In this document: one piece after another, positions 30,882 to 63,902 of the stretch
Layout of the letters: every line of letters starts with the position of its first letter
How positions within the stretch are numbered: position 1 is the stretch's first letter
NCBI GenBank assembly: GCA_026710435.1
Contig: JAPOQZ010000254.1
Coordinates: 1 to 64,000, forward strand
Length of the DNA stretch: 64,000 nucleotides
From: a bacterium
GTDB taxonomy: Bacteria; Actinomycetota; Acidimicrobiia; Spongiisociales; Spongiisociaceae
Direction: 5' to 3'
The notes under the pieces: model-generated
What the model saw: the letters and a program-made list of their open reading frames with translations, nothing else
The model's database searches: none
Told to the model about the DNA's origin: nothing
Program-made: the position numbers and the translations under genes

Positions 30882-30884
30882 CGT

Positions 30885-32422: not shown

Positions 32423-32559
32423 ACGCAAGCAAGGCCGCAACCAATAGGACGCTCCATCCATTGAGTAAGAACGAGTTCTAGCCGAGCCGTGCCACGATAG
32501 CTTGGATCATGGAGAGGTGGGCTTCTCTCTTACGCGTCATGTCTGGTGGGTCTTACGAG

Positions 32560-32668
32560 CCTAGAAAGGTGTTGAACAATGACGATTGCTCGGGTGTGCC
32601 GCCCGCAGACCCAGGTACTATGCCAGCGGTTGGCAGGCCGCTGGTGGACTGCTCGGCGCCCTCCTAGA
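32560..32668. repeat. A element, copy A3 (about 109 bp)
   Basis: Left tip CCTAGAAAGGTGTTGAACAA, right tip GCTCGGCGCCCTCCTAG. The interior is very close to A1, with GTTGGCAGGCCGCTGGTGGA shared exactly. Confidence 0.75.
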
Positions 32669-32827
32669 ACGTCCTACGGCTGTCCCCAGTCTCGGATTGC
32701 AATCAGACTCCGTCCTCTTGGCAAGGAAGCTGTTTCGGAAATCCGGAAGAGCAAGGTTGATCCGGAGTATGCGGTTGAACACCTTGACGCCCCGGAACCT
32801 GTGGCGTACGCGGCTGATTCGTTCCGA

Positions 32828-44712: not shown

Positions 44713-44944
44713 ACTGCCTCCTCCCCCGGCGGATCGATCCTCACCCGGCATCAAGTGCGTGGCATCGTAACCGCTCGGGACGGCAGCCTCTATCCCCGAT
44801 AGACTCAGCCCGTTGTCGCCAGCCGGTCGCGAGGGCGCGTTCACACTACGCGCAGTCGTTACGGTACCCGCGGGTCCCACGATCAAACTAGCCTGAGCGT
44901 CTACACGCGAGTTCGCGGCGGCGCGAATTCCGGTGGAGGAGCCC

Positions 44945-45997: not shown

Positions 45998-46090
45998 GAA
46001 TTGCCTGACGTTCCGGGCGGGCTGGTCGGAGCACTGCGCGCCATAATGGGACGGCTTGGCAGTACCCCGATTGGGGAGCCTCGGAGGTAG

Positions 46091-47680: not shown

Positions 47681-47711
47681 CTCCACTCCCCCACATCCGC
47701 CGGACCGTTCC

Positions 47712-49730
47712 ATGAACCGGGTACTCCTGTTCGGGATCGACCAGATGATCCTGCCCCTAACCGAGCAACTGATGCAGCAGCGGACCTACGCGAACCTGGA
47801 ACGGGTCCTCCATGGCGAGGGTGCGGTGTCGGAAGCCATTCCGTGCTGGCCTGCCTGGACCCCGACCAATTGGGCAACCATCGCTACCGGGGCGGATCCC
47901 GGGGCGCACGGGGTAATAAGCTGGGAGGTGTCCCTGCCCGATGGCCGCTGGCTGACCAGCTTCCACTCCTCGGCAGTGCGCGCCGAGACTCTATGGGAGG
48001 CCGCCGACCGAGCCGGGTTGAAGGTCGGGCTGGTGCACTACCCTGCGTCGTGGCCATCACGCTTGGAGAACGGCTTCGTGATCGACGGCTGCGCCCTGCC
48101 CGACTACGGCCAGACCCCCTTCGAACTGGTGTCGGGTCAGGGGTACTGCACCGACACCAACCTTCCCATCTCGCAGCGGGTCTCCTTCGATTCCGAGTCC
48201 CGGTGGACCAATCTCGGCGGGGGATTGCAACCCAGAACCGGCACGCTCGAGGTAGTCGCCAAGGTGGGCGGGGCCGTCACCCGGGTGCCGTTCGCGGTCA
48301 CCGGCGACAACCGGTACGACCGTATCGTCCTCAGCCTGTCGAGGGACGGGCACGACCTACTGGCCACGGTGCAGGTAGCGGAGTGGAGCGATTGGTTCGT
48401 AGTCCCGGTAGGTGGGATCGAGGGGCGCACCCGGATACGGCTGATCCGCTGCGACCCGCAGAGGGGAGACTTCCACCTCTGGCGTAGCCAGATACTTCCG
48501 GTCAACGGTCCATCCGAACCCGGTTGGATCCTCGATGACCTCACGCGGCGGCTCGGGCCCTACCAGGAACACGTCAGCGAGATCGCCGCGCTGGGCGGAG
48601 CGGCCGACTACGAGAGCCTCGCCGATGAAGCCCGCTATCAGATCCGCTGGTTCGCCCGCGCCATGCTGGAGTTGCTGGACCGATACGGATGCTCGCTGGT
48701 CGGGTTCCACTGGCACTGGCTGGACTGGGTCAACCATTTACATCTCGGGCATGTGGACCCCGACTGGGCCCACTACCGAGCGGACGGAGCAGAAGAACAC
48801 CTCGAAGTGATCCACGACGCGGTTGCCATGATCGACGAGGCGCTCGGCATCGTCCTCGACGGTCTCCGGGACGACGACCTCCTCATCCTCGTGGCGGACC
48901 ACGGCAACCTGCCCGTGGACCGGATGATCAACTTCCGGCGCTACTTCGTGGAGACCGGGCGGACCGTGCTCGTCGACCCGGGGGGTTCCATCGACGAGGC
49001 GAACACGGATTGGGACCGGACCCAGGTGTACGTTCCCGACCGTCTCAACGCCCCGGAGATACGCCTCAACCCGGCGCTAGACCCCGGACAGGCCGGGGAA
49101 GTGATGACAGAGGTGATACGGGATCTTCGCACTCTGGTCGATCCCGACACCGGTAAGACGCCTATCGCCCTGGCCTTGCCCAAGCGCGAGGCGGCACTGC
49201 TCGGCTGGTACGGCCCGGACGCCGGTGACATCCTCGTCATCCTCGAATCCGGGTACGTGTGGGACACCGAGGCCCATATCGACGCCGAGATCATCGATGC
49301 GGCGATAGAAAGCGACGTGGCTCCGCACTGGCATGGCGCCGTTCCGTCTCCGGTGTTCTCGGACCATCCCCCACCCGAGACAGCCGCCCACGGCCATGTA
49401 CTTCCCACAGCCGCAACCTCGCTGTCGTCCAATATGGCCATCCTCGCCATGGTCGGCGGTCCGGCCAGCCGCGGGTACCGGAGGGATCCGGAACGGTTGG
49501 GTCCGGTATGGCTCAAGGACATCGCGCCGACCATCGCCCATGTGCTCGGTATCCCACCACCCCGCCACAGCTCGGGTGGCGTTCTGCACGACTTCCTGGG
49601 TCGGGATCCCGGAACCCTGGAGCGGGACACGGACCCGCCTTCCCACTACCGGATACCGAGAGATGTCAAGGATGCCCAAGTCGGCATGTACGACTTCTCG
49701 ATCCTTGACACGCCTGCCGCCGATAGCTGA
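47712..49730 (+). CDS. Alkaline phosphatase-superfamily enzyme (type I phosphodiesterase / nucleotide pyrophosphatase like)
   Basis: A 672-residue cytoplasmic protein. LLFGIDQM holds the first metal Asp10, and WTPTNWATIATGADPGAHGV carries the threonine nucleophile (Thr52) and the GxHG motif of NPP-type enzymes. LLILVADHGN supplies the later Asp-His pair. A middle domain of about 200 residues (residues 150-350) is an insertion of unknown function. It should cleave phosphodiester, phosphonate or sulfate ester bonds. It appears to be co-transcribed with the dimethylformamidase-like gene. Confidence 0.82.
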   Translation: MNRVLLFGIDQMILPLTEQLMQQRTYANLERVLHGEGAVSEAIPCWPAWTPTNWATIATGADPGAHGVISWEVSLPDGRWLTSFHSSAVRAETLWEAADRAGLKVGLVHYPASWPSRLENGFVIDGCALPDYGQTPFELVSGQGYCTDTNLPISQRVSFDSESRWTNLGGGLQPRTGTLEVVAKVGGAVTRVPFAVTGDNRYDRIVLSLSRDGHDLLATVQVAEWSDWFVVPVGGIEGRTRIRLIRCDPQRGDFHLWRSQILPVNGPSEPGWILDDLTRRLGPYQEHVSEIAALGGAADYESLADEARYQIRWFARAMLELLDRYGCSLVGFHWHWLDWVNHLHLGHVDPDWAHYRADGAEEHLEVIHDAVAMIDEALGIVLDGLRDDDLLILVADHGNLPVDRMINFRRYFVETGRTVLVDPGGSIDEANTDWDRTQVYVPDRLNAPEIRLNPALDPGQAGEVMTEVIRDLRTLVDPDTGKTPIALALPKREAALLGWYGPDAGDILVILESGYVWDTEAHIDAEIIDAAIESDVAPHWHGAVPSPVFSDHPPPETAAHGHVLPTAATSLSSNMAILAMVGGPASRGYRRDPERLGPVWLKDIAPTIAHVLGIPPPRHSSGGVLHDFLGRDPGTLERDTDPPSHYRIPRDVKDAQVGMYDFSILDTPAADS

Positions 49731-49748
49731 ACGCTGCCGAGACCCCGC

Positions 49749-50639
49749 TCACTCCCAATCCGGGAAGGGCTGCTTCCAGTTCTCGTAGATGATCGCGTCT
49801 TGTATCTCCCTGGGAATGGTCGGCAGCCTCGTACCTTCGACGATGTCGTTGATACGTCTCAGGCCGCTGATCACATTGGTGATGGTCCCTGACGGGTAGT
49901 CGGAGGCCAGCAGCAGCTTGTGGTCGACCCCGTATTCCATGGCGGTGACCATCGCCTGCCAGTAGCGCCACGGCCGGTAGTGGACAGCCGATATGTCCGC
50001 GTACATGTTGGGCGATTTTCGGACCAGGGCGACGAGATCCTCTTCCCAGGGGTGACCGAGATGCGCGACGATCATCCTCAACTCGGGGAACTCCATGGCT
50101 ATGTCCTCCAACTGGAGAGGCAGAGCCCAGCGCAGCCGGGCGCGGCTGGGGAAGGTGGTGCCCTGGTGCCAGATGATGGGGATGCCATATCCGGCACACT
50201 TGCGGAAGAAGTCCCAGTAGGCCCTGTCGGTCGGATCGAAGTGCTGGTAGGTGGGCCCGAGCTTTAGCCCATGTAGACCGAGGTCCTCCACGCAGTGGGT
50301 CAGCTGGTCGATCGCGTCGGATGCCGTCGGGTTCACGGACGCCCAGCCGATCAGCTTCTCCGGATGGGTAGCCACGTATTCGGCAATGAGCTGGTTGGGC
50401 ACCACGATGCCTGTGGGCTCCGCCTGTATCCCGAACACCACGACCTTGTCCGCCGGCGTAGAAGCCTCCCAATGGTCCTCCGGCCGTGAATCGTAGGAGT
50501 GCAGATCGAGATGGGCGCTGTGCACCTCGCCCCCGGACTGCTTCATCTTGACCAGCTTGGACGCCAGGGCTTCCTGGGCGGCCTCCTCCGACCAATGATC
50601 CGGGTACCAGCCTATGTGGGTGTGGATATCGACGATCAC
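49749..50639 (-). CDS. Amidohydrolase family 2 (ACMSD-like) metal enzyme
   Basis: A 296-residue barrel. VDIHTHIGW gives the HxH pair, IIWHQGTTF and IVAHLGHPW the two later histidines and LLASDYP the Asp. The sequence GLHGLKLGPTYQHFDPTDRAYWDFFRKC is nearly repeated in the gene at 55697-56560, so the two are paralogues. ACMSD-type enzymes decarboxylate or hydrolyse ring compounds. Start GTG 50639 follows GGAG by 8 bases. It leads an operon-like minus-strand set only in position: the upstream MBL-fold gene ends 65 bases before it. Confidence 0.87.
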   Translation of the reverse strand: MIVDIHTHIGWYPDHWSEEAAQEALASKLVKMKQSGGEVHSAHLDLHSYDSRPEDHWEASTPADKVVVFGIQAEPTGIVVPNQLIAEYVATHPEKLIGWASVNPTASDAIDQLTHCVEDLGLHGLKLGPTYQHFDPTDRAYWDFFRKCAGYGIPIIWHQGTTFPSRARLRWALPLQLEDIAMEFPELRMIVAHLGHPWEEDLVALVRKSPNMYADISAVHYRPWRYWQAMVTAMEYGVDHKLLLASDYPSGTITNVISGLRRINDIVEGTRLPTIPREIQDAIIYENWKQPFPDWE

Positions 50640-50703
50640 GCTTACAGCTCCTCTCCAGGCCGGCCCCTGCCCCGACGGTGGGCCGGATGGGATGTCGGCG
50701 GGA

Positions 50704-51489
50704 TCATGGGGCGATGATCCCGTCCGGATACCGGTCGAAGACCTTGACGTCGTGGATCGGGACGATGTGCCGGGCCGTTGCCCGCACCCGCGCGTAGCAG
50801 TCGAGCGCCTCGTACATGTTCTCGCAGAGACCGAGCATCTCACCGTCCTCCACGTTCTCGTAGAAGAAGTACGAGTCGGAGATGGCGACCGTTCCGACCG
50901 CGGTGTCAACCTCCACGACGATCGACTCCCGGTGGTGAGCCCCCGACCACCATGTCCGGAGGCCCGGAGCGACCTCGTCCTCGTCCTCCAGCAGGGCGAC
51001 CCGATCCCAGCTGTCGGTGACGAGATCCACCAGGGTGTCCCGGGGAATCGACCGCCAGCGGTCGTCGTGGGGGTGGTCGTGCGTGGTGTGGAAGTGGATC
51101 CAGCCCCGTCTGGCGATGCAGATCCGGGCAGATCTGAACTTGTGGAGCGTCCCGGTGGTGTACAGCTCCAGCGGGGTCAGCAAGATATGGGTGATGTCAT
51201 CGGGTGTGAGGCCAACAGTCTCCAGGGCGCCGGTCATGTAGTGCTCCGGCTGCCTCTTCAGGTCGCCCTTCGGGGCGTCGTGGAGGTAACGCATCTTCGG
51301 CCAGCCTTCCTCGACCATGGCGGTGTCATCCGGGGGGGAGGTGTTTACGAGAGCCGTTATCCCTCCTCCCTGTATCAGGGTCACGTTGAACCCCAGCGGG
51401 TACATCTTGTCCCAGTGGCTCATCCAGAAGACCTCCGGTCCCGCGATCAGCGACTCGCCGACGCTCAGGACTCTCACCGAGTACTCCAT
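50704..51489 (-). CDS. Metallo-beta-lactamase-fold protein with a degenerate metal site
   Basis: A 261-residue protein with the overall order of N-acyl-homoserine-lactonase-like MBL proteins: VTLIQGGGITALVNTSPP, then ITHILLTPLELYTTGTLHKF, then WWSGAHHRESIVVEV and VAISDSYFFYENV. The canonical THxHxDH motif is replaced by TPLELYT, removing three or four zinc ligands. Catalysis by the usual mechanism is therefore unlikely. AAAAGGAG precedes ATG 51489. It sits between the amidohydrolase and oxidoreductase genes on the same strand. Confidence 0.78.
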   Translation of the reverse strand: MEYSVRVLSVGESLIAGPEVFWMSHWDKMYPLGFNVTLIQGGGITALVNTSPPDDTAMVEEGWPKMRYLHDAPKGDLKRQPEHYMTGALETVGLTPDDITHILLTPLELYTTGTLHKFRSARICIARRGWIHFHTTHDHPHDDRWRSIPRDTLVDLVTDSWDRVALLEDEDEVAPGLRTWWSGAHHRESIVVEVDTAVGTVAISDSYFFYENVEDGEMLGLCENMYEALDCYARVRATARHIVPIHDVKVFDRYPDGIIAP

Positions 51490-51517
51490 TACTTTGCTCC
51501 TTTTCAGAGGTGACCAT

Positions 51518-52513
51518 TCATCGAGAGAGATCCACCGGCCTGCCCGTCCATGACGATTCGTCCAATGCCAGAGCAACCTCCAGCGCCGCCCGGGCGTCCT
51601 CCAAGGACACCGGCCAATCGCGTATGCCCCGAACCCAGCCCAGGAAGTGGCGGTCCTCGATGGCGACCGAACCTGCCGCGGTGCCTCCGACGTCGAACGA
51701 ACCGTGAGTCCTGAGCCACTTGTTCTCCTCGAGCGAGTAGACCCTCGTCGCCGGATCGCGCATCTCGACGTATCCGGCGCCGCGAGTACCGAAGACGGCA
51801 AGCCGGTAGTCCCCCGCCAGCCTCGACCGGTCGTTCATGACCCAGTTGAACTCCACCAACCCGACCGCTCCGCTCGCAAAGCGCAGGGTCGCCACGACTG
51901 CGTCCACCGCGCCGTCTCCCACCGAGGCGGTGGACGCCGGCATGGACTGGACCCGGACGATATCGCCCGCCAGCCAGCGGAGCAGGTCGAGGTCGTGGAC
52001 GCCCACCTCGACGGGTAGGGTCGTCCGGTGTGCCAGGAGGCGTCCCTCGAACGCCGGCACGTTGCGGCGAGCACTCAGGCTGACCGGATCACCGATATCA
52101 CCGCCCTGCACGCTCCTCGCCAAGGCCAGGTAGTCGGGCTCGAAGCGCATGGTGTGACCCACCGCTAGCCGGCCACCTGTTTGCCGGGTGATCGCGATGA
52201 TGGCATCGGCGTCGTCGAGGTCGTGGGCGATCGGCTTCTCGCAGAATACGGGAAGGCCAGCTTCGAGGCAGCGGGCCACTACCGGAAGATGCTGCTCTTG
52301 CGGGGTGCAGACGAAGACCGCTTCGAGCTTACGGCTTGCCAGTAACCGGTCCACATCGGCGAAGAAGCCGACCCCGGAGGGCAAGCTAGCGGCCACGCCC
52401 GGGTCCAGGTCGCAACATGCAACCAGGTCCGCTTCGGGAAGCGCGTCCAGGACCCGGACATGCACCGAGCCCATCATCCCGATACCCACTACCGCGCAGC
52501 GGACTGGATTCAC
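51518..52513 (-). CDS. Gfo/Idh/MocA-family NAD(P)-dependent oxidoreductase
   Basis: A 331-residue protein. CAVVGIGMMGSVHVRVL is the Rossmann nucleotide site, and PVFCEKPIAHDLDDADAII has the EKP motif. EVGVHDLDLLRWLAGD carries the GxxxHxxD catalytic pair common in inositol or sugar dehydrogenases of this family. It probably oxidises a cyclitol, sugar or related alcohol. GTG 52513 follows GGAGGC. It is the first gene of a minus-strand set divergent from the U32-like operon, so it may share control with it. Confidence 0.9.
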   Translation of the reverse strand: MNPVRCAVVGIGMMGSVHVRVLDALPEADLVACCDLDPGVAASLPSGVGFFADVDRLLASRKLEAVFVCTPQEQHLPVVARCLEAGLPVFCEKPIAHDLDDADAIIAITRQTGGRLAVGHTMRFEPDYLALARSVQGGDIGDPVSLSARRNVPAFEGRLLAHRTTLPVEVGVHDLDLLRWLAGDIVRVQSMPASTASVGDGAVDAVVATLRFASGAVGLVEFNWVMNDRSRLAGDYRLAVFGTRGAGYVEMRDPATRVYSLEENKWLRTHGSFDVGGTAAGSVAIEDRHFLGWVRGIRDWPVSLEDARAALEVALALDESSWTGRPVDLSR

Positions 52514-52596: not shown

Positions 52597-52625
52597 TTGA
52601 CGCGGCCGGGCAATTACCCAATAAT
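52597..52625 (+). promoter_or_regulatory. Promoter of the U32-like / hydrolase / enolase operon
   Basis: TTGACG (52597-52602), a 17-base spacer and AATAAT (52620-52625). Predicted start of transcription is about 52632, at the edge of the operator that follows. Confidence 0.65.
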
Positions 52626-52632
52626 CATGCCA

Positions 52633-52657
52633 CGCAACACCGTTGCGATGCGCGCAA
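52633..52657 (+). promoter_or_regulatory. Three-half-site operator candidate, site 2
   Basis: CGCAA-CACCG-TTGCG-ATGC-GCGCAA, directly after the -10 box and 16 bases before the first start codon. A bound protein would block transcription, as expected of an IclR-type repressor. Confidence 0.7.
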
Positions 52658-52673: not shown

Positions 52674-53597
52674 ATGAAGATACAGGAAGCGCTCCGCCGG
52701 CAGGGCCTGGTCAATGCGGTGACGCCGGCGGATAGCGACCGCCGATTTCCCGACGGCGCCGAGTTCCGGATCGAGATCCCGAGCGTCGAGGGTCCCACTG
52801 TGCTGGCCGCGGTGGTAGAACAGGCGGATCGGTACGACCTCACCGTCAACCGCATCTCTCAGGGCAGCGGGGGCATGCTACTCGAGGAGGGCGAACTCCG
52901 GGAGATGGCCGCCATCGGCGCAGAGACGGGTCTCGAGGTGTGCCTGTTCACCGGGCCCAAGGCCGGTTACGACATCGGCGCGTTCAGCCGGTCGGAAGAC
53001 GGGCGCAGCCAGTTCGCCCAGATAAGAGGTATGCGCCAGCTGCGGTACGCTGCGGCAGACATCGCCAGGGCTACCGAGGCAGGGATCCGCAGCTTTCTGG
53101 TGGGTGACCTCGGCCTGCTGGCGGTCCTGACCCGGATGCAGGCCGACGGCGACCTCCCCGGCGAGACCGTATGGAAGATCTCGGCCTACATGGGGGTCTC
53201 GAATCCGGCCTCCGTCCGGCTGCTGGAGGAGATGGGCGCCGGATCGGTCAACATTCCGGCAGACGTGACCCTGGAACAACTCTGGGAGATCAGGTCGGCC
53301 GCATCCATTCCCATCGACCTATACCTGGAGACTCCCGACAGTATGGGTCCCGTCGTCAGGGGCCACGAGATCGCCGACTTCGTGGCGGTCGGGGCACCGC
53401 TGCACGCGAAGATGGGCCTTGCCAACGCGGGTGGCGTCTACCCTTCCGGTGGCCAGACGGTCGACACCGCCATTGCCAATGCCCGCGAGAAGGTGCGCCG
53501 GGCTGCCCTCGCTCTGGAATGGCTGAAGAGGGAAAGACCGGCCTCGGTCCAGTCGAAGCCACACGCTGCGGGGCTCGGCATCCCGGTTGTCCCCTAA
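52674..53597 (+). CDS. U32-peptidase-like TIM-barrel protein
   Basis: A 307-residue protein without a signal peptide. VNRISQGSGGMLLEEGELREMAAIGAETGLEVCLFTGP, FLVGDLGLLAVL, VWKISAYMGVSNPASVRLLEEMGAGSVNIPADVTLEQL and LYLETPDSMGPVVRGHEIADFV recall the U32/UbiU-type barrel. The iron-sulfur cysteines of UbiU/UbiV are absent. Its enzymatic role is not established. GGGGAGGG precedes ATG 52674. It is the first gene of a six-gene plus-strand catabolic set under the operator at 52633-52657. Confidence 0.55.
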   Translation: MKIQEALRRQGLVNAVTPADSDRRFPDGAEFRIEIPSVEGPTVLAAVVEQADRYDLTVNRISQGSGGMLLEEGELREMAAIGAETGLEVCLFTGPKAGYDIGAFSRSEDGRSQFAQIRGMRQLRYAAADIARATEAGIRSFLVGDLGLLAVLTRMQADGDLPGETVWKISAYMGVSNPASVRLLEEMGAGSVNIPADVTLEQLWEIRSAASIPIDLYLETPDSMGPVVRGHEIADFVAVGAPLHAKMGLANAGGVYPSGGQTVDTAIANAREKVRRAALALEWLKRERPASVQSKPHAAGLGIPVVP

Positions 53598-53632: not shown

Positions 53633-54490
53633 ATGTTCCGCGACCTCACCCAGCCTGCACGGTCACGTTCATCCATCCGGCGCGGTGTGGGTTCCTCGGT
53701 GAGGCTTCTCTTCGCCGAGTTGACTCGTGATGAGTCCCGAACGATAGCCAGGGACGGCCTGCTGGTCCTACCTGTCGGTGCTACCGAACAGCACGGGCCT
53801 CATTTGCCGGTCGGGACGGACTCGATCGGCGCCGAACACGTGGCACGGTCAGCGGCGGCGACCGTGGCCGACCGGTTCCCGGTAGCGGTGGCCCCGACCC
53901 TCTGGTACGGGTCGTCTCCCCACCACATACCATTCGGGGGCACAATGTCGCTGACCGCCGGAACATTCCTGTCAGTTCTGATGGACCTCGGGCGGTCGAT
54001 CGCCCGCGCTTCCTTCCGGCGGCTCTTCATCGTCAACGGTCACGGCGGGAACCACGAGTTGATCGGTCTCGCCGCACGTGACCTGGCGCTGGAGGAAGGC
54101 ATGGATGTGGCGGCATGCTCGTGGTGGCATCTGGCTGCCGAAGGGCTTGCAGCCGCCGGAGCCCGCGAGATCGGTCGGCTTCCCGGCCATGCTGGTGCAT
54201 TCGAGACGTCGGTGGTGCTGGCGTTGGAGCCTTCGCTGGTACGAAACCCTCGACCCCATCGACCGGGATGGGTTTCATCCGTCGGCTCCATCGACGTGCC
54301 GGTGAGGGTCGAACGTCCGGGAAGCTGGGAGGCGACCGATGGGTTCACCGACAGCCCTGCTGCCGCATCCGAGGAGTTGGGCCAAACCTTTCTGAAGATC
54401 GGCATCGAATCGGTGGCTGCTGCCATGATCGACTTCCACGAGGGTTCACCGAGCGCGGAGGGCACTCCTGACGAAAGGAAGAGGACATGA
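53633..54490 (+). CDS. Creatininase-family amidohydrolase
   Basis: Up to 285 residues. LVLPVGATEQHGPHLPVGTDSIGAEHVA holds the Glu, His and Asp ligands. IVNGHGGNHELIGLAAR and GHAGAFETSVVLAL (His and Glu) complete the two-metal site. The family opens cyclic amides such as creatinine or cleaves formamides. Start ATG 53633 is the longest option; GTG 53699 (VRLLFAEL) is closer to where homologues usually begin. The stop overlaps the M20 gene start (ATGA), tying it to that gene. Confidence 0.88.
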   Translation: MFRDLTQPARSRSSIRRGVGSSVRLLFAELTRDESRTIARDGLLVLPVGATEQHGPHLPVGTDSIGAEHVARSAAATVADRFPVAVAPTLWYGSSPHHIPFGGTMSLTAGTFLSVLMDLGRSIARASFRRLFIVNGHGGNHELIGLAARDLALEEGMDVAACSWWHLAAEGLAAAGAREIGRLPGHAGAFETSVVLALEPSLVRNPRPHRPGWVSSVGSIDVPVRVERPGSWEATDGFTDSPAAASEELGQTFLKIGIESVAAAMIDFHEGSPSAEGTPDERKRT

Positions 54491-55659
54491 GCGACTTGTT
54501 CGAACGGGCCGCCACGGCCATCGACACCAGACGCGTGGTCGACCTGGCCCGAGCCTTGTGCAGCATCTCGTCGGATGATCCCCGAGCGGAGGGTCCACGG
54601 GCGGAAATCATCGCGGATGCCTTGGACCGCGCCGGGGCGGAGGTTCATATAGCGGACGTAGTCGAAGGCCGCCCGAACGTCATAGCGAGGGTGAAGGGTG
54701 ACGGCCGGAGAGCGCCGCTGGTGCTGCAGGGACACATCGACGCCGGCGTGTACCAGACTGGCTGGACCCGACCTGCCCACAGCCCCTGGGAGTCAGGCGG
54801 GCGGCTGTACGGCGGAGGTGTCACAGACATGCTCGGAGGGGTAGCGGCAATGGCTGCGGCTGTCGAGGCTGCGACCGGATTCGGACCCCTTCCCGGTGAC
54901 CTCGTACTCCACGCGACGATGTATCACGATGGCATCGGGCTCGGCTCGAAGTATGCACTGATGACCGAAGGACCCGACGAGGGCTACGGGATCTGCGGAG
55001 AGCCCTCGGATCTGAACATCCATACGGGCAACGGGGGGGCATTCAAGTTCGAGATCACGCTTACCGGGTCTCCCGCGCACGTATCGCGCATGGAGTCTGC
55101 CGTAGACACCCTCCGCCCGGCGGTGGCGGTCTACGACAGGCTCGTAGACCACGAGTTCTCGCACCGACCCGAGCCCCGGCTCCCCGACCTGCCGCGGCTG
55201 CTGGTCGGGGAACTCAAGGCCGGCGACTCACCTGCGGCCGTGGCAGAGTCGGCGACCATCCGTGGTGATCTGCGTTACGTCCCCGGGATGGACAGGGTCA
55301 CAGTCAGGCAGGAGATCCTGGATATTGTCGACGGCGTGGTGCCGGACGAGGTAGCCCGCAGGGTGCGCATCATCGGTGTCCATCAGCCCTTCCTGGGGGC
55401 GACTTCGGGTCCGTTGATCGATGCCATATCGGCCGCCCAGGCCGCCATCGTCGGCCATGTTCCGCGAGTGACCCATGAGTTACCCGGCCAAGCCTTCGTC
55501 ACCGACGCCGCGGACCTGGCGGCGGCCGGACTGGAGACCGTTGTGTACGGCGTCGGGGCCTGGTACTACGCCCCGGACGAGTGGGTCTGGATCGACCATC
55601 TGGCCGGGTCTGCACGTGTGTACCTGGCTGTGGCGGCCATGCTCGGCGCCGATTCGTGA
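54487..55659 (+). CDS. M20-family metallohydrolase (ArgE/DapE-like) with altered active site
   Basis: A 390-residue protein with the M20 domain order. LQGHIDAG (His83, Asp85) and GVTDMLGG (Asp114) are metal ligands, and a lid domain (GNGGAFKFEITLTGSPAHVSRMESAVD) lies in the middle. The DEE motif that holds the catalytic base and a bridging ligand is replaced by YHD (146-148, in MYHDGIGLGS). Either the chemistry differs from classic deacylases or the protein is inactive. Family members remove acyl groups from amino acids. It is coupled to the creatininase gene. Confidence 0.82.
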   Translation: MSDLFERAATAIDTRRVVDLARALCSISSDDPRAEGPRAEIIADALDRAGAEVHIADVVEGRPNVIARVKGDGRRAPLVLQGHIDAGVYQTGWTRPAHSPWESGGRLYGGGVTDMLGGVAAMAAAVEAATGFGPLPGDLVLHATMYHDGIGLGSKYALMTEGPDEGYGICGEPSDLNIHTGNGGAFKFEITLTGSPAHVSRMESAVDTLRPAVAVYDRLVDHEFSHRPEPRLPDLPRLLVGELKAGDSPAAVAESATIRGDLRYVPGMDRVTVRQEILDIVDGVVPDEVARRVRIIGVHQPFLGATSGPLIDAISAAQAAIVGHVPRVTHELPGQAFVTDAADLAAAGLETVVYGVGAWYYAPDEWVWIDHLAGSARVYLAVAAMLGADS

Positions 55660-55696
55660 CCGACCGAGCGGGGCGACCTTCCGGATCCCGGACGGC

Positions 55697-56560
55697 ATGA
55701 TCGTCGACGCCCATACCCATGTCGGCTCCCGCGAGCACTTCAGCCCCCGGTTCGTGGCGGAGATGGTCCGAGCGTGGGGCGAGATGAACTGGCCGGAGGA
55801 CGATCTCGCCGCCCACCGGGAGGCCATGGAAGAGGTCGACCGGGCGATAGTGGTGGCGATGGACGCCCCGGCGGTCGGGATGGTGGTGCCTGATCGGTAC
55901 GTCAGCGAGTACGTGGCATCCCAGCCGGACAAACTGGTGGGGTTCGCGAGCGTCGATCCCAACCGGCCCGACGCGTTGGAGCGCCTTACCTTTGCGGTGG
56001 AGGAACTCGGTCTCACGGGCCTCAAGGTAGGGCCCATCTACCAGCACTTCGACCCGACCTCCCCTCCTGCGATCGCCTTGTTCCGGCGGGCCGAAAAGCT
56101 GGGCCTACCCGTGCTGTGCCACCAGGGCACCACCTTCGTCTCGGACGCGCCGCTGCGCTGGGCCAGACCCTTCCTGATCGACGATGTCGCCCGTGCGTGC
56201 CCGGATCTGCGACTGTTCATCGCCCACCTCGGGCACCCCTGGTGCGAGGAGACGATGGCGGTCATCCGCAAGCACCCCAACCTGTACGCGGATGTCTCTG
56301 CCCTCCACACCAGGCCGGTCCAGTTGTATATGGCGCTGCGGTCCGCAATCGAGTATCGGGCCACCGAGAAACTCCTGTTCGGAAGCGACTTCCCTTTCGC
56401 CACACCTGCCGGCACCGCCGAAGCCTTGCGGTCCGTCAACGACTCGGTAGGCGTGGGCTGGCCGCCGATTCCCACCGAGATCATCGAACAGATCATCCGG
56501 AGTCCCGCGCTACGGGTACTGGGGCTCGAAGATGAAGTAGCCCAGGAGGGTGTTGTATGA
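55697..56560 (+). CDS. Amidohydrolase family 2 (ACMSD-like) metal enzyme, paralogue
   Basis: A 287-residue barrel. VDAHTHVGS (HxH), VLCHQGTTF, FIAHLGHPW and LLFGSDFPF give all the metal positions. GLTGLKVGPIYQHFDPTSPPAIALFRRAEKLG mirrors the gene at 49749-50639. ATG 55697 is preferred; the frame is open further upstream but overlaps the M20 gene. Its stop overlaps the next start (ATGA). The two paralogues flank this catabolic block and may act on related substrates. Confidence 0.87.
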   Translation: MIVDAHTHVGSREHFSPRFVAEMVRAWGEMNWPEDDLAAHREAMEEVDRAIVVAMDAPAVGMVVPDRYVSEYVASQPDKLVGFASVDPNRPDALERLTFAVEELGLTGLKVGPIYQHFDPTSPPAIALFRRAEKLGLPVLCHQGTTFVSDAPLRWARPFLIDDVARACPDLRLFIAHLGHPWCEETMAVIRKHPNLYADVSALHTRPVQLYMALRSAIEYRATEKLLFGSDFPFATPAGTAEALRSVNDSVGVGWPPIPTEIIEQIIRSPALRVLGLEDEVAQEGVV

Positions 56561-57675
56561 GAGTCGAGCGGATACGTACCACGGCGGTGGCTGTGCCCAT
56601 GATCGAGGAACGGATCATCGCCGGAGCCAGGGGAACCCACAGCCGTTCGCCTTTCCTGATCGTCGAAGTGGACACCGACGAGGGTCTGGTGGGTCTCGGC
56701 GAGGTGTCCTGTACACCTCTATGGAGCGGCGAGGACTCTGCCACGGCCCGGCATGTGATCAGCGCCTACATTGAGCCGGCGGTCTCCGGCCTCGATCCCC
56801 GGTCCCCCGAAGCGCTCCAGCCGATGATCAACGGAGCCATCGCCGGTCACTACTTCACCAAGGCCGGGGTGGAGATGGCGCTGTGGGACATCGCAGGCAA
56901 GGCGGCTGGGCTTCCCGTTCATCGGCTGCTTGGAGGGCCGGTCATGCCACGTATCCCCACCAAGTTCTCAGTGACCGGTCGGGAACCGGAACGTGCCGCG
57001 GAGGTCGCCTCCTGGGCAGTGGAGCAGGGCTTCGGAGCGATGAAAGTGAAAGTCGGCAGGGGCGGGGTCAAGGCCGATGTCGCCAGGGTGGCAGCGGTAA
57101 GGGCAGCGATCGGTGACGATGTGGTCCTCGGAGTGGATGCGAACGGCGGATGGAACCGGGGTGAAGCGATCCAGGCCGGCGGACAGATCGCCCCGCTGGG
57201 TGTTTCGTTCATGGAACAGCCGGTACCGGCCCGGGACCTGGCGGGAATGGCCGAGGTGAGGCGCCAGGTCAGGATGCCGGTGGTCGCCGACGAGTCAGCC
57301 GGTACACCCGAAGACGCGGCCCTGCTCGCCGTGAACGAGTCATGCGACATCCTGTCGATATATGTCGGAATGGCCGGCGGGATAGCCTCCGCTCGGAGGG
57401 TGGCGGCCGTGGCCACCTCCTTCGGGCTGGGATGGACCATCGGATCCAACCTGGAACTCGGAATAGCGCTGGCGGCGCATATCCACATCGCAGCCTCGAC
57501 CCCCGGCTTCGATAGGCGTGTCCCAGCCGACATCCTCAGCCCCTTCTACTACGAGGGAGACGTGATCGCCGAGCCTCTCGACGTGAGAGCGGGCGAAGCC
57601 ATAGCCCCTGAAGGTCCCGGGCTGGGCGTGAGTCTCGACCGGGATGCCCTGGAACGCTACCGGGACACCGGTTGA
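56557..57675 (+). CDS. Enolase-superfamily enzyme (MLE/dipeptide-epimerase-like branch)
   Basis: A 372-residue protein. MKVKVGRGG gives the KxK pair, DANGGW the first Asp, MEQPVP and ADESAG the next metal ligands. The second catalytic Lys expected in the muconate-lactonizing branch is missing: the segment reads CDILSIYVGMAGG. A one-base mechanism such as dehydration or ring opening is therefore likelier than two-base racemisation. ATG 56557 overlaps the amidohydrolase stop. Its close neighbour at 57707 is a paralogue. Confidence 0.85.
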   Translation: MRVERIRTTAVAVPMIEERIIAGARGTHSRSPFLIVEVDTDEGLVGLGEVSCTPLWSGEDSATARHVISAYIEPAVSGLDPRSPEALQPMINGAIAGHYFTKAGVEMALWDIAGKAAGLPVHRLLGGPVMPRIPTKFSVTGREPERAAEVASWAVEQGFGAMKVKVGRGGVKADVARVAAVRAAIGDDVVLGVDANGGWNRGEAIQAGGQIAPLGVSFMEQPVPARDLAGMAEVRRQVRMPVVADESAGTPEDAALLAVNESCDILSIYVGMAGGIASARRVAAVATSFGLGWTIGSNLELGIALAAHIHIAASTPGFDRRVPADILSPFYYEGDVIAEPLDVRAGEAIAPEGPGLGVSLDRDALERYRDTG

Positions 57676-57706: not shown

Positions 57707-58831
57707 TTGCGGATAACCGGGGTTGCCGCCACCCCAGTCGAGGTTCCGCGGCTGGCCCGCTTCCAACCCAAGACTGCGCACGGCGCGGTGCGGGCGAGTC
57801 GCTACGTCGTGCTCGAGATCGAGAGCGGTCCGGGAAAGGTGGGAATCGGGGAGATCACCTGCGATCCACTTTGGAACGGCGAGGAAGCCACGGAAACGTC
57901 CAGGCTGCTGAACGGTCCTCTCGGGAACGTCCTGCTCGGGGCCGATCCTCTCCAGTGGGCCGATGTGTCTGCCCGGATCGACCGAGCGATTACGGGACGG
58001 CCGTTCCTCCGGGCGGCTGTCGAGATGGCCTGCCTGGATGTTGTGGGGCGACACTTCGGGGAACCGGCCCATGCGTTCTTGGGGGGCGCCTACCGAACGG
58101 AGATCGACACCAAGCTCGTGCTTCCCGCTCGGGATGTGGACACTGTGCGAGCCATGGCTGCGGACGCTGTCGGGCTAGGAGCGACCACCTTGAAGGTAAA
58201 GGTAGGGCTCGGGGTTGAAGAGGACCTTGCCCGCGTCGCCGCGGTCCGCAGCGTTGCCGGACCGGATGTCCGGATCACCGTCGATGCGAACGAGGGCTGG
58301 ACCCCGGAGGAGGCGACCGCGGCGTTCGGCGGCTTGGCCCCTCTCGGCGTGGTTGCGGTCGAGCAGCCGCTGGCGAGAGGATCCGCCGGCGCGTCCGCCG
58401 CTCTCGTCCGGAAGACGTCGATGGCTGTGATGGGTGACGAGTCGATCTGGACGGAGCAGGACGTGGTCGAGGCAGCCCGGAATGGTTCCTTCGATACCAT
58501 CAACGTCTATCCGGGCAAGTGCGGAGGGCTCAGGCGAACGATCCGGATGGCGAGCCTGGCCCGAACGCTCGGGCTGGCGGTCTCCTACGGCTCCAATCTC
58601 GAGCTCGGTATCGGGGCCGCGGCATTGGCCCACACGGTGGCGGCTACGAAGGTTCTGAGCCCGGTCGTGCCTGCTGATCTCATCGGACCGCTCTACTTCG
58701 AGGAAACCATGGTCGAGAACCCGGGCTTCGTGGGATGGCGATCAGCCAGTGTTCCGGCCGGGTCCGGCCTCGGAGTGAGGCTCGACCATGCCGCGGTGGA
58801 CGCTTACCGGATCCGTGAGGGTGCAACTTGA
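57707..58831 (+). CDS. Enolase-superfamily enzyme, second copy
   Basis: A 374-residue protein, similar in order to its upstream neighbour: LKVKVGLGVEEDLARVAAVR (KxK), VDANEGWTPEEA, AVEQPLARG, MGDESIW. Here the strand that lacks Lys in the paralogue reads FDTINVYPGKCGG, with a Lys two residues later. GEITCDPLWNGEEA near residue 50 parallels GEVSCTPLWSGEDS in the other. The start is TTG 57707, the only reasonable codon. The last 28 bases overlap the convergent IclR gene. Confidence 0.83.
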   Translation: MRITGVAATPVEVPRLARFQPKTAHGAVRASRYVVLEIESGPGKVGIGEITCDPLWNGEEATETSRLLNGPLGNVLLGADPLQWADVSARIDRAITGRPFLRAAVEMACLDVVGRHFGEPAHAFLGGAYRTEIDTKLVLPARDVDTVRAMAADAVGLGATTLKVKVGLGVEEDLARVAAVRSVAGPDVRITVDANEGWTPEEATAAFGGLAPLGVVAVEQPLARGSAGASAALVRKTSMAVMGDESIWTEQDVVEAARNGSFDTINVYPGKCGGLRRTIRMASLARTLGLAVSYGSNLELGIGAAALAHTVAATKVLSPVVPADLIGPLYFEETMVENPGFVGWRSASVPAGSGLGVRLDHAAVDAYRIREGAT

Positions 58832-59586
58832 TCCGTCGCGCTCCGAACGATAGGGACGGCTTTGAGTGCTCGGACCTGCTCCAGCAGTACTGGCTCGAGT
58901 TCACCCATCGTGTCCTTGTTCCATCGACCGGACGGTCCGGTGATAGAGACGGCTACCGGGTCCAGGTTGCTCCCGAGGCGGAAGCCGAACCCCATACAGC
59001 AGACACCTAGGCGGCCCTCCTCGAAGTCGAGGCTGTAGCCGCGTCCCCGGGTGCGAGCCACTTCAGCCATAAGTACCCCGGCCGAGGTGATCGAAAAGGG
59101 TGTCAGCCCCACCAGGTCGAGTTCCCCCAGCAGTGAACCCAACTCGGGTTCGGAGAGAACCGAAAGGTAAGCCTTGCCGAGCGCGGAGGTATGCATAGCG
59201 TCCCTGCTTCCCAGCTGGCAGGCAACCCGGAGGGGGTTGGGACTGTCCGCTCTCCCTACGATCAGCATTCGTTGGCCATGGGGCACTGCGACATGCACCG
59301 TTTCCCCTGACATGTCGCGGAGTGTCTCAGCGAGTTGCAAAGCCTGCTGGATCGAGGTTCCTCCAGCTGCGGCCTGCCCGACCGCGCACAGATGCGGGCT
59401 GACCATGTACGATCCTCGATCGTCGAGCACGATCCAGTCGAGTTCGCGCAGCGTATTCAGCAGGCGCAGGGCGTTCGACTTGTGGACCCCGATTTCCGAC
59501 GCCACATCGTCGAGCCTCACCCTTCCCTCCCTAGCCACGTACTCGACCGTACGAACGGCCCGGGCCACAGTCTCGATCAAGACCAC
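58804..59586 (-). CDS. IclR-family transcriptional regulator
   Basis: A 260-residue regulator. Residues 1-65 form the winged helix (VARAVRTVEYVAREGRVRL, GVHKSNALRLLNTLREL), and the rest is the IclR effector domain (SALGKAYLSVLSEPEL, GRGYSLDFEEGRLGVCCMGF). GTG 59586 has GGGAGG 5 bases upstream, which makes it the best start; ATG 59664 would add a short cysteine-rich leader. It lies between a catabolic operon and an importer, both carrying the same operator design, so it is the likely controller of both. The effector is probably a substrate of the pathway. Confidence 0.88.
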   Translation of the reverse strand: MVLIETVARAVRTVEYVAREGRVRLDDVASEIGVHKSNALRLLNTLRELDWIVLDDRGSYMVSPHLCAVGQAAAGGTSIQQALQLAETLRDMSGETVHVAVPHGQRMLIVGRADSPNPLRVACQLGSRDAMHTSALGKAYLSVLSEPELGSLLGELDLVGLTPFSITSAGVLMAEVARTRGRGYSLDFEEGRLGVCCMGFGFRLGSNLDPVAVSITGPSGRWNKDTMGELEPVLLEQVRALKAVPIVRSATDQVAPSRIR

Positions 59587-59670
59587 TGTTCCTCCCCAAC
59601 GGCGGCAACAGCACAGTACCCGATCGAGTCGCGGAGAAAAACCTTCGTACGAGTGCTCGCTCATGATCAC

Positions 59671-59700
59671 TTGACACGTTCGAGAGCCGGGCACCACAAT
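59671..59700 (+). promoter_or_regulatory. Promoter of the PotD-like lipoprotein operon
   Basis: TTGACA (59671-59676), an 18-base spacer and CACAAT (59695-59700). The operator follows at once, in the same arrangement as at 52.6 kb. Confidence 0.6.
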
Positions 59701-59706
59701 GACTAA

Positions 59707-59731
59707 CGCAAACCGGTTGCGCAGAGCGCAA
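59707..59731 (+). promoter_or_regulatory. Three-half-site operator candidate, site 3
   Basis: CGCAA-ACCGG-TTGCG-CAGA-GCGCAA. TTGCGC-AGA-GCGCAA within it is a perfect palindrome. It lies between the iclR gene and the divergent importer gene, so it could serve both. Confidence 0.72.
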
Positions 59732-59777: not shown

Positions 59778-60989
59778 ATGACGATTCGAGGACGCGTTGT
59801 TATCACGCTTATGGCGCTCGCTCTCGTGGTGGCGGCCTGCGGTGAGGACGAGCCTGCACCGACGACGGCGGCTGCCACAACAGCTGCACCCACAACAGCC
59901 GCCGCAACTACTGCGGCACCTACGACCACCGAGGCGATGGTCGAAGCCATGGGCGCATGTGAAGGAGCAACTCTGAGCTTCATCGGGCTTGACGGCGAAG
60001 CCGGAGAGGTCGAGCTCGAGGCATGGCGCGGCGAGCACGGCGTCGCCTTGGAGACCAACTGGCCCGGCAGCTGGCCGCAGTTCGTGGCGGCCATCAAGGT
60101 TGGTGACGTTTATGACCTGGCAACGATCGCCTACCATGTCGGTCCCCGGCACATCGAGGCAGGCCTCTTCCAGCCGATCGACACTTCCAGGCTGGAGAAC
60201 TGGGACAAGATGTTCCCCGGGCTCAGGGAGAACTCGTCTCTGCGGGGTGCGGATGGTCAGGTGTACGGCGTGCCGATCGCGTGGGGCGACGGGCCTTTCA
60301 TTTACCATCCCGGACGGGTACCCAATCCTCCCACCTCGATCACCGAATTGATGGAGCCTGAGTGGGAAGGGCGCTTCACGATCTTCGACTCTCCGACCCT
60401 CATCTTCTCGATGCTGGCGGTGGCGAACGGGTTCGACGACGGCGTGGGTGATCGCACCAACATCACCGGAGACCAGCTTGAGGTTGTGAAGGACCAGGCA
60501 CTGCAGATCGTTCGTAACGCCTCCGCATTCGCCAATGGCTATCGCGACGCGACCGATGTCATGGTTGCGGGCGACTCCGACCTCAATGTCAACGGCTGGG
60601 AGGCCATGCTGACATGGGCAGAAGAGCAGGGCGAGACCTTGGACTTTGCCTTCTTCGAAGAGTCCGGTGGCGGCGGTTGGTGGGACGGGCTCGCCATTCC
60701 CGTCACAGCAGACGACGTGGACTGTGCCTACGAGTACATCGACCTGATGATCTCCGATGAGATCAACGCCCAGGTGGGCGAGAACCTGGTGTCCGGTGTG
60801 GTCAATGCCAACTCGGCAGAAATCGCCGGTCCGGGAGCTCAGATATACGACTACGACCTTGTGCGGACCGACACTTCGTCCGTTTCCTTCCGGAACGCTC
60901 AGCCGCCTGAGGACGAGGAGGCACCCGAGGGCATCTCGACGATCTCCGACTGGCTGGACGCTTGGGAGGAGATCAAAGCCGAGGCGTAG
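59778..60989 (+). CDS. PotD/PotF-type ABC transporter substrate-binding lipoprotein
   Basis: A 403-residue binding protein. The signal ends in LVVAACGED (lipid Cys21), followed by a Thr/Ala/Pro repeat linker of about 35 residues. The mature domain has the spermidine/putrescine-type pattern with GVPIAWGDGPFIYHPG and WWDGLAIPVTADDVDCAYEYIDLM. Ligands of this class range from polyamines to other small cations and organic acids. GGAGGA precedes ATG 59778. Two permeases and an ATPase follow in order. Confidence 0.88.
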   Translation: MTIRGRVVITLMALALVVAACGEDEPAPTTAAATTAAPTTAAATTAAPTTTEAMVEAMGACEGATLSFIGLDGEAGEVELEAWRGEHGVALETNWPGSWPQFVAAIKVGDVYDLATIAYHVGPRHIEAGLFQPIDTSRLENWDKMFPGLRENSSLRGADGQVYGVPIAWGDGPFIYHPGRVPNPPTSITELMEPEWEGRFTIFDSPTLIFSMLAVANGFDDGVGDRTNITGDQLEVVKDQALQIVRNASAFANGYRDATDVMVAGDSDLNVNGWEAMLTWAEEQGETLDFAFFEESGGGGWWDGLAIPVTADDVDCAYEYIDLMISDEINAQVGENLVSGVVNANSAEIAGPGAQIYDYDLVRTDTSSVSFRNAQPPEDEEAPEGISTISDWLDAWEEIKAEA

Positions 60990-61024: not shown

Positions 61025-61954
61025 ATGACCGACAGAGTCTCAACAAGGCGAGGACCTCGCAGGCGGCGTTCCGGAGCGGGAACACCCAGCGAGGTCCTCG
61101 CTGTGTTTGATCGCCGTCGGAGACTGGTTGCGTGGTTGCAGTTGTTCCCCGGCTCGGTGTACTTCACGCTGCTGTTCCTCGTACCCCTGGCCGGTCTGCT
61201 GGCCATGAGCTTCTTCCGGCTGGTCGACTTCGATCCCGTTCCGGCTTTCGTGCTCTCGAACTACGTCGAGGTATTGACAACTTCGATCCATGTCCGGCTG
61301 GGTCTCCGGACCATCCAGGTGGCGGGGATCCTGACGGTCATCGTCCTGCTCGTCAGCTTCCCTTGTGCCTACGTCCTGAACTTCGTGTTCCGGGCCAAGC
61401 GCCAGCTTCTCTATTTCCTGATCCTTGTCAGCCTGTTCGGCGGCTACATCGTCCGGATCTACGCCTGGCGGAGCATCCTGGGCCGCCAGGGAGTCATCAA
61501 CCAGACCCTCCTCGGGATGGGCTTCATCGATGAACCGATCCGCTACCTGCTGAACAGCATGTTCGCTGTCGGGGCTTCCCTCGTGAACTTCCTGATCCCG
61601 CTGGGAGTACTCCCGATCTATGCAGCGATGCAGAACGTCTCGCCCCATGTCATCGAGGCGGCGCGCGACCTCGGCGCCTCGCGTATCAGGGCAGCGCGCC
61701 AGATCGTCCTTCCTCTCTCGATGCGGGGAGTGCGGGCGGCCACGGCTTTCGTGTTCATAGCGACGCTGGGTGAATGGGTGACTCCGCGCCTCCTTGGTGG
61801 AACCAATGACTTGTTGATAGGTAACCGCATCGAGTTCTACTTCGGCCAGAGCCTGGAATGGCCACAAGGAGCGGCCCTGGCCATGACCTTGATGGTGGCG
61901 ATGGGCGTCTTCGCTTACATCATCATCTCACTGATGAAACGGCTCACCCGATGA
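61025..61954 (+). CDS. PotB/PotH-type ABC transporter permease
   Basis: A 309-residue inner-membrane subunit with six hydrophobic segments after a basic N-terminus. VSPHVIEAARDLGASRIRAARQIVLPLSMRGV is the EAA loop. FGGYIVRIYAWRSILGRQGVINQTL is typical of the spermidine/putrescine class. ATG 61025 (MTDRVSTRR) begins 35 bases after the lipoprotein gene, and its stop overlaps the next start. Confidence 0.9.
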   Translation: MTDRVSTRRGPRRRRSGAGTPSEVLAVFDRRRRLVAWLQLFPGSVYFTLLFLVPLAGLLAMSFFRLVDFDPVPAFVLSNYVEVLTTSIHVRLGLRTIQVAGILTVIVLLVSFPCAYVLNFVFRAKRQLLYFLILVSLFGGYIVRIYAWRSILGRQGVINQTLLGMGFIDEPIRYLLNSMFAVGASLVNFLIPLGVLPIYAAMQNVSPHVIEAARDLGASRIRAARQIVLPLSMRGVRAATAFVFIATLGEWVTPRLLGGTNDLLIGNRIEFYFGQSLEWPQGAALAMTLMVAMGVFAYIIISLMKRLTR

Positions 61955-62763
61955 CCGCGCCGGATTGGCGACGAACGATGGTGCGCATGCAGCGGCGCCC
62001 CGTCGGATCGGCGGCCTTCCTGGTCCTGGTGTTCGTATTCCTGTTCGCTCCCCTGGTAGTCATGGTCGCATTCTCCTTCAACTCATCTCCTCGCCTCAGC
62101 TTTCCGTTCGCAGGGGTTTCGATTCGCTGGTACCAGGAGATCTTCACCGACACGCTGGTGTTGAGGGCTTTCCGGCGCAGCGTTCAAGCGGCGGTGGTCA
62201 CCGCCGGCATAACCGGTGTTCTCGGACTGCTTGCTGCGTTGGGGATACTGAAGGTGGCTGCCCGTTGGAGGACGGTCTTCCTAACCACCGCCCTCGGTCC
62301 GCTCGCCATCCCAGGACTGCTCTACGCGATCGGGCTGGCGGTCTTCTACCGGCAGATCGGTGTGGGACGTTCAATCTGGAGCGCCAACCTCGGCCACGCC
62401 CTCGTCGCGTTGCCGTTCGTATTCTTGATCATCGGCGCCTCTCTCGAACGCTTCCGGTTCGGTCTCCTGGAGGCGGCCCAGGATCTTGGCGCGACACGCT
62501 GGTACGCCTTCCGGACCATCACGCTCCCCCTGATCCTGCCGGCCGTCATCGGCGCCATGCTCTTGGCGGCGGCGATCTCGGTGGATGACTTCGTGATCGC
62601 CTTCTTCACAGCCGGGCAGGACAAGACTCTGCCGCTCGTGATGTACGGAAGGGTCCTCAAAGGCATTGATCCGACCCTGAACGCGATAGGTACAGTGATG
62701 CTGATACTCACGACCGGTTTGGCTTTCATGGCCGCCAGTAGAACCACGATCGGCGAACGATGA
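61951..62763 (+). CDS. PotC/PotI-type ABC transporter permease
   Basis: A 270-residue permease. FLFAPLVVMVAFSFNSSPRLSFPFAGVSIRWYQEIF is the classic PotC opening. LLEAAQDLGATRWYAFRTITLPLILPAV is the EAA loop, and ISVDDFVIAFFTAG is also diagnostic. It overlaps both neighbours by ATGA and forms the transmembrane pore with the preceding subunit. Confidence 0.92.
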   Translation: MTAPDWRRTMVRMQRRPVGSAAFLVLVFVFLFAPLVVMVAFSFNSSPRLSFPFAGVSIRWYQEIFTDTLVLRAFRRSVQAAVVTAGITGVLGLLAALGILKVAARWRTVFLTTALGPLAIPGLLYAIGLAVFYRQIGVGRSIWSANLGHALVALPFVFLIIGASLERFRFGLLEAAQDLGATRWYAFRTITLPLILPAVIGAMLLAAAISVDDFVIAFFTAGQDKTLPLVMYGRVLKGIDPTLNAIGTVMLILTTGLAFMAASRTTIGER

Positions 62764-63902
62764 CCAACGCTCCCGGACAACCCGTTCATCCGGCGATCCT
62801 GCTGGAAGGTGTCACGAAGCGCTTCGGCAGTGTTGTAGCCGTCGACAACGTGACGCTAGCCGTGGAGGAAGGGGAATTCTTCTCCCTCCTCGGACCGAGC
62901 GGTTGCGGGAAGACCACCCTGCTGAGGATGCTGGCCGGGTTCGAAACACCCGACGAGGGGTCTGTATACCTCCGTGGAGAGGATGTGACACTGGTCCAGC
63001 CCAACAAGCGGGCCACCAACATGGTGTTCCAGAACTACGAACTTTTCCCGCACATGACCGTGTTCAACAACGTGGCGTACGGTCTCAAGCTGAGGAGAAC
63101 TCCCAAAGGCGAGATCAAGCAACGGGTTAGCGAGATGCTCGAGGTCGTGGGCGTAGGTGGTCTGGGCGCCCGGGCGGCTGATCAGCTGTCCGGGGGCCAG
63201 CAGCAGCGGGTGGCCCTGGCCCGGGCGCTCATCAACAGGCCCGCGGTGCTCCTTCTCGACGAACCGCTCAGTGCTCTGGACGTCAAGCTCCGAAAACGCA
63301 TGCAGCTCGAACTCAAATCCATCCAGGACTCCCTCGGGACCACATTCGTCTACGTGACCCACGATCAGGAGGAAGCGCTATTGATGTCGGATCGTGTGGG
63401 AATCATGGACCACGGACGCCTCCTGCAGATCGGCGCGCCTCGCTCTATCTACGAACATCCGAGGAACGAGTTCGTGGCTGACTTCGTGGGAACCCTCAAC
63501 GACTTCGCCATCACCGTGACCCGCACGGATGGTGATCTGGCGGTGGCGGAACATGGCGAGGGCGACCGGATCGTCGTGATGGCCGGAGAGGCCGGTAGTC
63601 GGGGCGACACCCTCCGGATCGCGGTGAGGCCGGAGCGGATCGTCGTGGCGCCGGTGGGAGAGGAGTCCGACTCCGGGAAACTCGGGAACCGGCTATCGGG
63701 GCGGGTACAGGATGTGATCTACATGGGTCCGATAACCCAGTACCTGGTCGATACCGGAATGCTGGGGCGCGTTGTCAGCCAGAGGGTTAGCAACGAGGAG
63801 GCCACCTCCATCACGCCCGGTCTGGAAGTCACGGTCACGTGGGCAGTGGACGCGGCCTTCCCGCTCAGCGAACGGGACTCGTTCGATCCCGCGATCGCTT
63901 AA
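62760..63902 (+). CDS. PotA/PotG-type ABC transporter ATPase
   Basis: A 380-residue ATPase: LLGPSGCGKTTLLRMLAGFE (Walker A), FQNYELFPHMTVFNNVAYG (Q-loop), [15 protein letters not shown] (signature), VLLLDEPLSALD (Walker B) and VYVTHDQEEALLMSD (switch). A TOBE domain forms the last 120 residues. It powers the importer encoded upstream. The next gene, an amidase, begins 8 bases after its stop, so it is probably part of the same transcript. Confidence 0.92.
   Translation: MTNAPGQPVHPAILLEGVTKRFGSVVAVDNVTLAVEEGEFFSLLGPSGCGKTTLLRMLAGFETPDEGSVYLRGEDVTLVQPNKRATNMVFQNYELFPHMTVFNNVAYGLKLRRTPKGEIKQRVSEMLEVVGVGGLGARAADQLSGGQQQRVALARALINRPAVLLLDEPLSALDVKLRKRMQLELKSIQDSLGTTFVYVTHDQEEALLMSDRVGIMDHGRLLQIGAPRSIYEHPRNEFVADFVGTLNDFAITVTRTDGDLAVAEHGEGDRIVVMAGEAGSRGDTLRIAVRPERIVVAPVGEESDSGKLGNRLSGRVQDVIYMGPITQYLVDTGMLGRVVSQRVSNEEATSITPGLEVTVTWAVDAAFPLSERDSFDPAIA

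Follow-up and report, generated by a model that had tools for sequence, protein, structure and literature searches.

Gene content of the cluster

The window, by which we mean the whole 64,000-nucleotide stretch of DNA analysed here, contains an iclR gene on the minus strand that stands between two plus-strand operons, one for a putative breakdown pathway and the other for a PotD-type transporter, with a third operon for a polar-amino-acid-type ABC transporter at lower coordinates. The genes of these operons are:

29152-32353, plus strand: ABC operon of the polar-amino-acid type (SBP_bac_3, two permeases, ATPase), preceded by operator C
52674-53597, plus strand: U32-like protein, with which the pathway operon begins (weak match to Pfam Peptidase_U32, 27 bits)
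53711-54490, plus strand: creatininase-family amidohydrolase (Pfam Creatininase, 202 bits)
54487-55659, plus strand: M20 deacylase/peptidase, ArgE/DapE-like (profile matches)
55694-56560, plus strand: Amidohydro_2 hydrolase (profile match)
56557-57675, plus strand: enolase-superfamily enzyme 1, muconate-cycloisomerase-like (profile matches)
57707-58831, plus strand: enolase-superfamily enzyme 2 (profile matches)
58804-59586, minus strand: iclR, the proposed regulator (start GTG at 59586 or, by RBS spacing, TTG at 59580)
59778-60989, plus strand: PotD-like solute-binding protein, with which the transporter operon begins (Pfam SBP_bac_6 and SBP_bac_1)
61028-63902, plus strand: PotB-, PotC- and PotA-like transporter genes (ORFs downstream of operator B)

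The iclR product matches two Pfam models above their curated cut-offs, HTH_IclR at the N-terminus (31.8 bits, cut-off 22) and IclR_C at the C-terminus (93.5 bits, cut-off 24), and by these profile matches is an IclR-family protein. Because a Shine-Dalgarno sequence (GGGGAGGA) can be read directly at 59590-59597 on the minus strand, translation probably begins at one of the two starts listed, TTG 59580 or GTG 59586. We also attempted a finer classification of this protein. The best-scoring NCBIfam IclR model is that of BhcR from Paracoccus denitrificans, with 110.9 bits against a cut-off of 350 (NF045644), and the BhcR pathway is a different one, so that identity with BhcR was rejected. Membership of the PcaR/PcaU/PobR subfamily was likewise rejected, at 82.7 bits against a cut-off of 284.75 (TIGR02431), and no TphR model appeared among the NCBIfam matches.

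On the transporter side, the gene order downstream of operator B is conserved in seven genomes, and the product of the first gene (59778-60989) is only a distant match to the PotD model. Just past the end of the window, an acetamidase/formamidase-family gene (FmdA_AmdA; locus L046, 115-816) follows the PotA-like gene and probably belongs to the same operon.

Operator architecture and promoter position

Arrays of a short CGCAA box, which we call operators A, B and C, precede all three operons. Their positions, and those of the promoters that accompany the first two, are:

29067-29101, plus strand: operator C, upstream of the SBP_bac_3 ABC operon
52597-52625, plus strand: promoter of the pathway operon (TTGACG at 52597-52602, 17-bp spacer, AATAAT at 52620-52625)
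52633-52657, plus strand: operator A, preceding the pathway operon and centred 29 bp ahead of the ATG
59671-59700, plus strand: promoter of the PotD-like operon (TTGACA at 59671-59676, 18-bp spacer, CACAAT at 59695-59700)
59707-59731, plus strand: operator B, in the interval from iclR to the PotD-like operon, centred 59 bp ahead of the ATG

Read directly from the window, operator A is CGCAA-CACCG-TTGCG-ATGCG-CGCAA and operator B is CGCAA-ACCGG-TTGCG-CAGAG-CGCAA. Both conform to CGCAA-N5-TTGCG-N5-CGCAA, that is, three boxes that alternate in orientation and recur uniformly every 10 bp, a spacing that would set adjacent boxes one helical turn apart. An earlier note on this DNA had described the site next to iclR as CGCAA-N5-TTGCG-N4-GCGCAA; the site stands, at 59707-59731, but the extra G is replaced by A in the orthologous sites of four relatives (G007, G008, G011 and G012), and because it is not conserved the third unit is better written as N5-CGCAA. 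The second site that the note had placed at 52633-52657 with identical spacing is present, with three boxes and the same N5/N5 arrangement. Operator C, absent from that note, is a four-box array (TTGCG-N5-CGCAA-N5-TTGCG-N5-CGCAA) made up of two palindromes whose centres are 20 bp apart; the start of its operon follows 51 bp downstream. Across 35 boxes from divergent genomes the box consensus is RCGCAAC, with the TTGCG-N5-CGCAA pair as the probable minimal unit.

A good -35/-10 promoter directly before both three-box sites, as the same note had recognised, is found with TTGACG/AATAAT (17 bp) at operator A and TTGACA/CACAAT (18 bp) at operator B. In the seven family genomes that carry these operators (see below), the TTGAC element is invariant and lies exactly 36 bp upstream of the first box at all 14 promoters of A and B, and in the alignment a TATAAT-like -10 ends 7-8 bp ahead of the first box. 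The start of operator B coincides with the expected +1 of the PotD-like operon promoter. This promoter geometry implies that the operator spans about +1 to +25, a position that would suit a repressor.

Sites of this kind have precedents among IclR-family operators. Suvorova and Gelfand (2021) predicted three-box IclR sites of alternating orientation for 32 orthologous groups, in which both known palindrome geometries are represented by one pair of boxes each, and for 94 groups they predicted tandem IclR palindromes 18-22 bp apart (PMC8222616). Operators A and B similarly have three boxes of alternating direction, with one pair in the group 1 geometry (GTT-11-AAC) and the other in the group 2 geometry (xGCAAC-N3-GTTGCx). 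Specifically, boxes 2 and 3 read GTTGCG-N5-CGCAAC where the last base is C, as at most sites, which gives the GTT-11-AAC arrangement, and boxes 1 and 2 read CGCAA(C)-N3-GTTGCG, the second known IclR palindrome type. The operator centres, 29, 59 and 68 bp before the gene starts, also fall within the zone of -20 to -80 common to the published sites. Unlike the published consensus GKTYCR / YGRAMC (GTTYCR), the box here is GTTGCG, which fits at five of six positions with a G rather than Y at the fourth, and unlike the published three-box sites operator C has four boxes. Its 20-bp palindrome spacing nevertheless falls within the 18-22-nt tandem spacing of the 94 IclR groups, and its four boxes recall TtgV-type operators, at which an IclR tetramer can bind four recognition sites, although TtgV controls efflux and the window IclR is only distantly related to it (E 4.6e-8 to 2xrn).

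Two further comparisons concern individual regulators. The TphR site TTTTTGCGCATAGCGCAAAAA from Comamonas sp. E6 (terephthalate; PMC8222616, Table 1) contains TTGCG-N5-CGCAA, with boxes and spacing identical to those found here, but it is listed with no third box and belongs to a proteobacterial aromatic-acid pathway; no terephthalate genes were recognised among the annotated genes of this locus. The palindrome plus third repeat of PcaU, which the earlier note had offered as an architectural precedent, holds in the literature (PMC8222616): the PcaU and PobR operators of Acinetobacter baylyi combine an IclR palindrome with an external direct half-site repeat, which PcaU needs for binding, although their box (GTTCG/GTCCG) is unlike the one here. 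Judged by their architecture, operators A, B and C appear to belong to an already described kind of IclR site, and a literature search found no publication on this regulon.

Genome-wide distribution and conservation

The motif is far more frequent in the window than expected, with six matches at three or fewer mismatches compared with 0.56 expected, a count reached in none of 100 shuffles. Throughout the 4.9-Mb window genome (270 contigs), the exact pattern occurs at three places only, namely operators A, B and C, all on the window's contig, against a zero-order expectation of about 0.012 exact matches per genome; a backwards-read control pattern had no exact match in the same genome. Placement at random positions at the chance rate, the outcome that the earlier note had named as telling against the motif, was not what we saw, as exact sites are confined to the promoters of this cluster. 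In keeping with that note's suggestion that hits should cluster before transport and hydrolase genes, the promoters at which sites were found are those of the transporter, hydrolase and iclR genes in one cluster. A chance origin was therefore rejected, on the control patterns together with the conservation described below.

Other motif matches were set aside as background. Isolated two-box palindromes elsewhere in the window genome (G000) and in the same-genus genome G002 are about as numerous as matches to the backwards-pattern control, and nearly all of those sampled overlap ORFs; these were kept out of the regulon. One of them in G002 (G002:C93:32720) is identical to half of operator C and has no SBP_bac_3 operon alongside. 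Matches in three further genomes of the class (G222, G073 and G038) lie inside unrelated genes, in genomes without an IclR relative at E<=1e-40, and the number of these genomes equals the count of backwards-pattern matches (three) in the class scan. Separately, a stretch adjoining the regulon (44933-51801) carries phosphotriesterase-family, dimethylformamidase-like, phosphodiesterase-like, amidohydrolase and oxidoreductase genes, has no exact box pair and is largely conserved in regulon-bearing relatives.

Within the family, exact motif copies were found in 7 of the 15 genomes searched, each time at both orthologous promoters. When these seven genomes were aligned without gaps outward from the operator, all 30 box positions were invariant (15/15 each at A and B), compared with 6 of 20 spacer positions (4/10 at operator A, 2/10 at operator B). 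Across the class, an IclR relative at E<=1e-40 is present in 7 of 395 genomes, and the exact motif in all seven of these, which bears out the co-occurrence with this iclR that the earlier note had anticipated; the M20 pathway gene, at E<=1e-100, is present in eight of the 395, again with the motif in every one. The association of IclR and motif gives a Fisher p of about 1e-12, uncorrected for shared ancestry, with counts that are not independent given the kinship of the genomes and with the presence of the IclR confounded with that of its surrounding pathway. Outside the class, no match to the IclR at E<=1e-30 was found among 396 genomes of the phylum.

The most telling comparison comes from a different family of the class, represented by the complete genome G168. 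The IclR of G168 shares only 38-39% identity with the window IclR overall but 52% over the HTH stretch, with an identical recognition stretch (VHKSNALRLL). One TTGCG-N5-CGCAA pair occupies the interval that separates iclR from the divergent gene next to it, directly upstream of iclR; a second such pair precedes a U32-like/creatininase/M20/MLE operon; and a full three-box site stands before a divergent Dpp-type transporter, which replaces the PotD-type (locus L056, sites at 8751-8775 and 9033-9047, the pathway operon having the two-box form only). Relative to the divergent gene, this three-box site stands ~85 bp ahead of the ATG and not at a clear +1. In TtgV, DNA is contacted by Ser48, Thr49, Gln51 and Arg52 (PMC8222616), and alignment through the (R/K)-S-(T/N) pattern suggests that KSNALR comprises the DNA-reading residues of the window IclR. 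The predicted DNA-reading helix and the boxes appear, then, to have been conserved together down to an IclR of 38% identity.

A different situation was observed in G002, which alone among the other scanned genomes shares the window's genus. Both operators are kept there with perfect boxes and diverged spacers, but the interval from the MR_MLE gene to the PotD operator lacks iclR altogether (C18, locus L013 1053-1500). The 450 bp at this position contain no iclR remnant that we could find, and no IclR with a VHKSNALRLL-type recognition helix was found elsewhere in the 96%-complete assembly. Recent loss of iclR, a move of the gene to a part of the genome that was not assembled, or its replacement by another regulator may account for this gap. 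That the operators outlived iclR in G002, either as another protein took them over or as more than one regulator reads such 10-bp arrays in two dimer registers, we regard as unlikely.

Proposed regulation and its alternatives

Taken together, the sites, their conservation, the promoter geometry, the restriction to one cluster and the co-occurrence suggest that the boxes are very probably the operator of the adjoining IclR, which would repress the pathway and uptake operons until released by a ligand. Dimers or a tetramer of IclR would bind the boxes at about +1 to +25, directly past the -10, and would thereby repress the two operons that begin at 52674 (pathway) and 59778 (PotD-like uptake), with repression relieved by a ligand that is probably a substrate or intermediate of the pathway. 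In the window genome, IclR probably would also repress the later-acquired ABC operon with its four boxes (29152 onward). The iclR start is a little over 120 bp from operator B, which could additionally serve to autoregulate iclR.

The IclR family includes activators and dual regulators (PMC8222616), and the protein might bind these boxes as an activator rather than a repressor, as PcaU and PobR can. However, both operators lie over the transcription start, immediately past the -10, and protein bound there should block RNA polymerase; we consider activation distinctly unlikely. Slimmer still are the prospects of a reading in which another transcription factor, encoded elsewhere, binds the boxes and iclR is merely a neighbour. 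The retention of both operators in G002 without such an IclR would fit this reading, but it is equally explained by recent gene loss or an assembly gap. Moreover, the conserved neighbourhoods that we examined yielded no other recognisable regulator, the confinement of the motif genome-wide to this cluster suits a local regulator, a TTGCG-N5-CGCAA pair stands directly upstream of iclR in G168, and the recognition helix and boxes persist jointly while the rest of the IclR diverges to 38%. An RNA-leader role, with boxes 1+2 and 2+3 as mutually exclusive hairpins of an attenuator or riboswitch, is highly improbable: the sites do begin at the predicted +1, and the predicted RNA folds of sites A and B do pair boxes 2 and 3, but folding stability is unremarkable at A (z 0.55) and C (z -0.39) and modest at B (z -2.3), seven genomes show invariant boxes and not one compensatory change, the G168 three-box site lies ~85 bp before its ATG and not at a clear +1, and no terminator or anti-terminator partner was seen.

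Regulation by the adjoining IclR would give an uncharacterised Acidimicrobiia regulator a concrete candidate target sequence and regulon, the latter covering the creatininase-, M20-, amidohydrolase- and enolase-type enzymes of a breakdown pathway as well as its transporters, and would make both substrate and inducer searchable. The two- and three-box forms that precede orthologous U32-like genes, along with the four-box site, also provide a series for the two predicted dimer registers of IclR proteins.

The same comparisons suggest that transporters have been swapped between lineages with the boxes kept, the PotD-type being found in the family, the Dpp-type in G168 and an added amino-acid-type operon in the window genome, so that the regulon would present a clear small case of transporter recruitment through its operator. 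For the last of these, the stretch that carries a PhyH dioxygenase gene and the SBP_bac_3 operon (about 27.8-32.7 kb) is absent from G002, in which lpd directly precedes the ABC-2 genes, and its GC content (27850-32700) is 60.9%, compared with 64.1% for the window. A search of other family genomes for the binding protein of the 29152 operon yielded no orthologue, only paralogues of 28-31% identity. The PhyH/ABC stretch was probably gained by the window genome together with its four-box operator.
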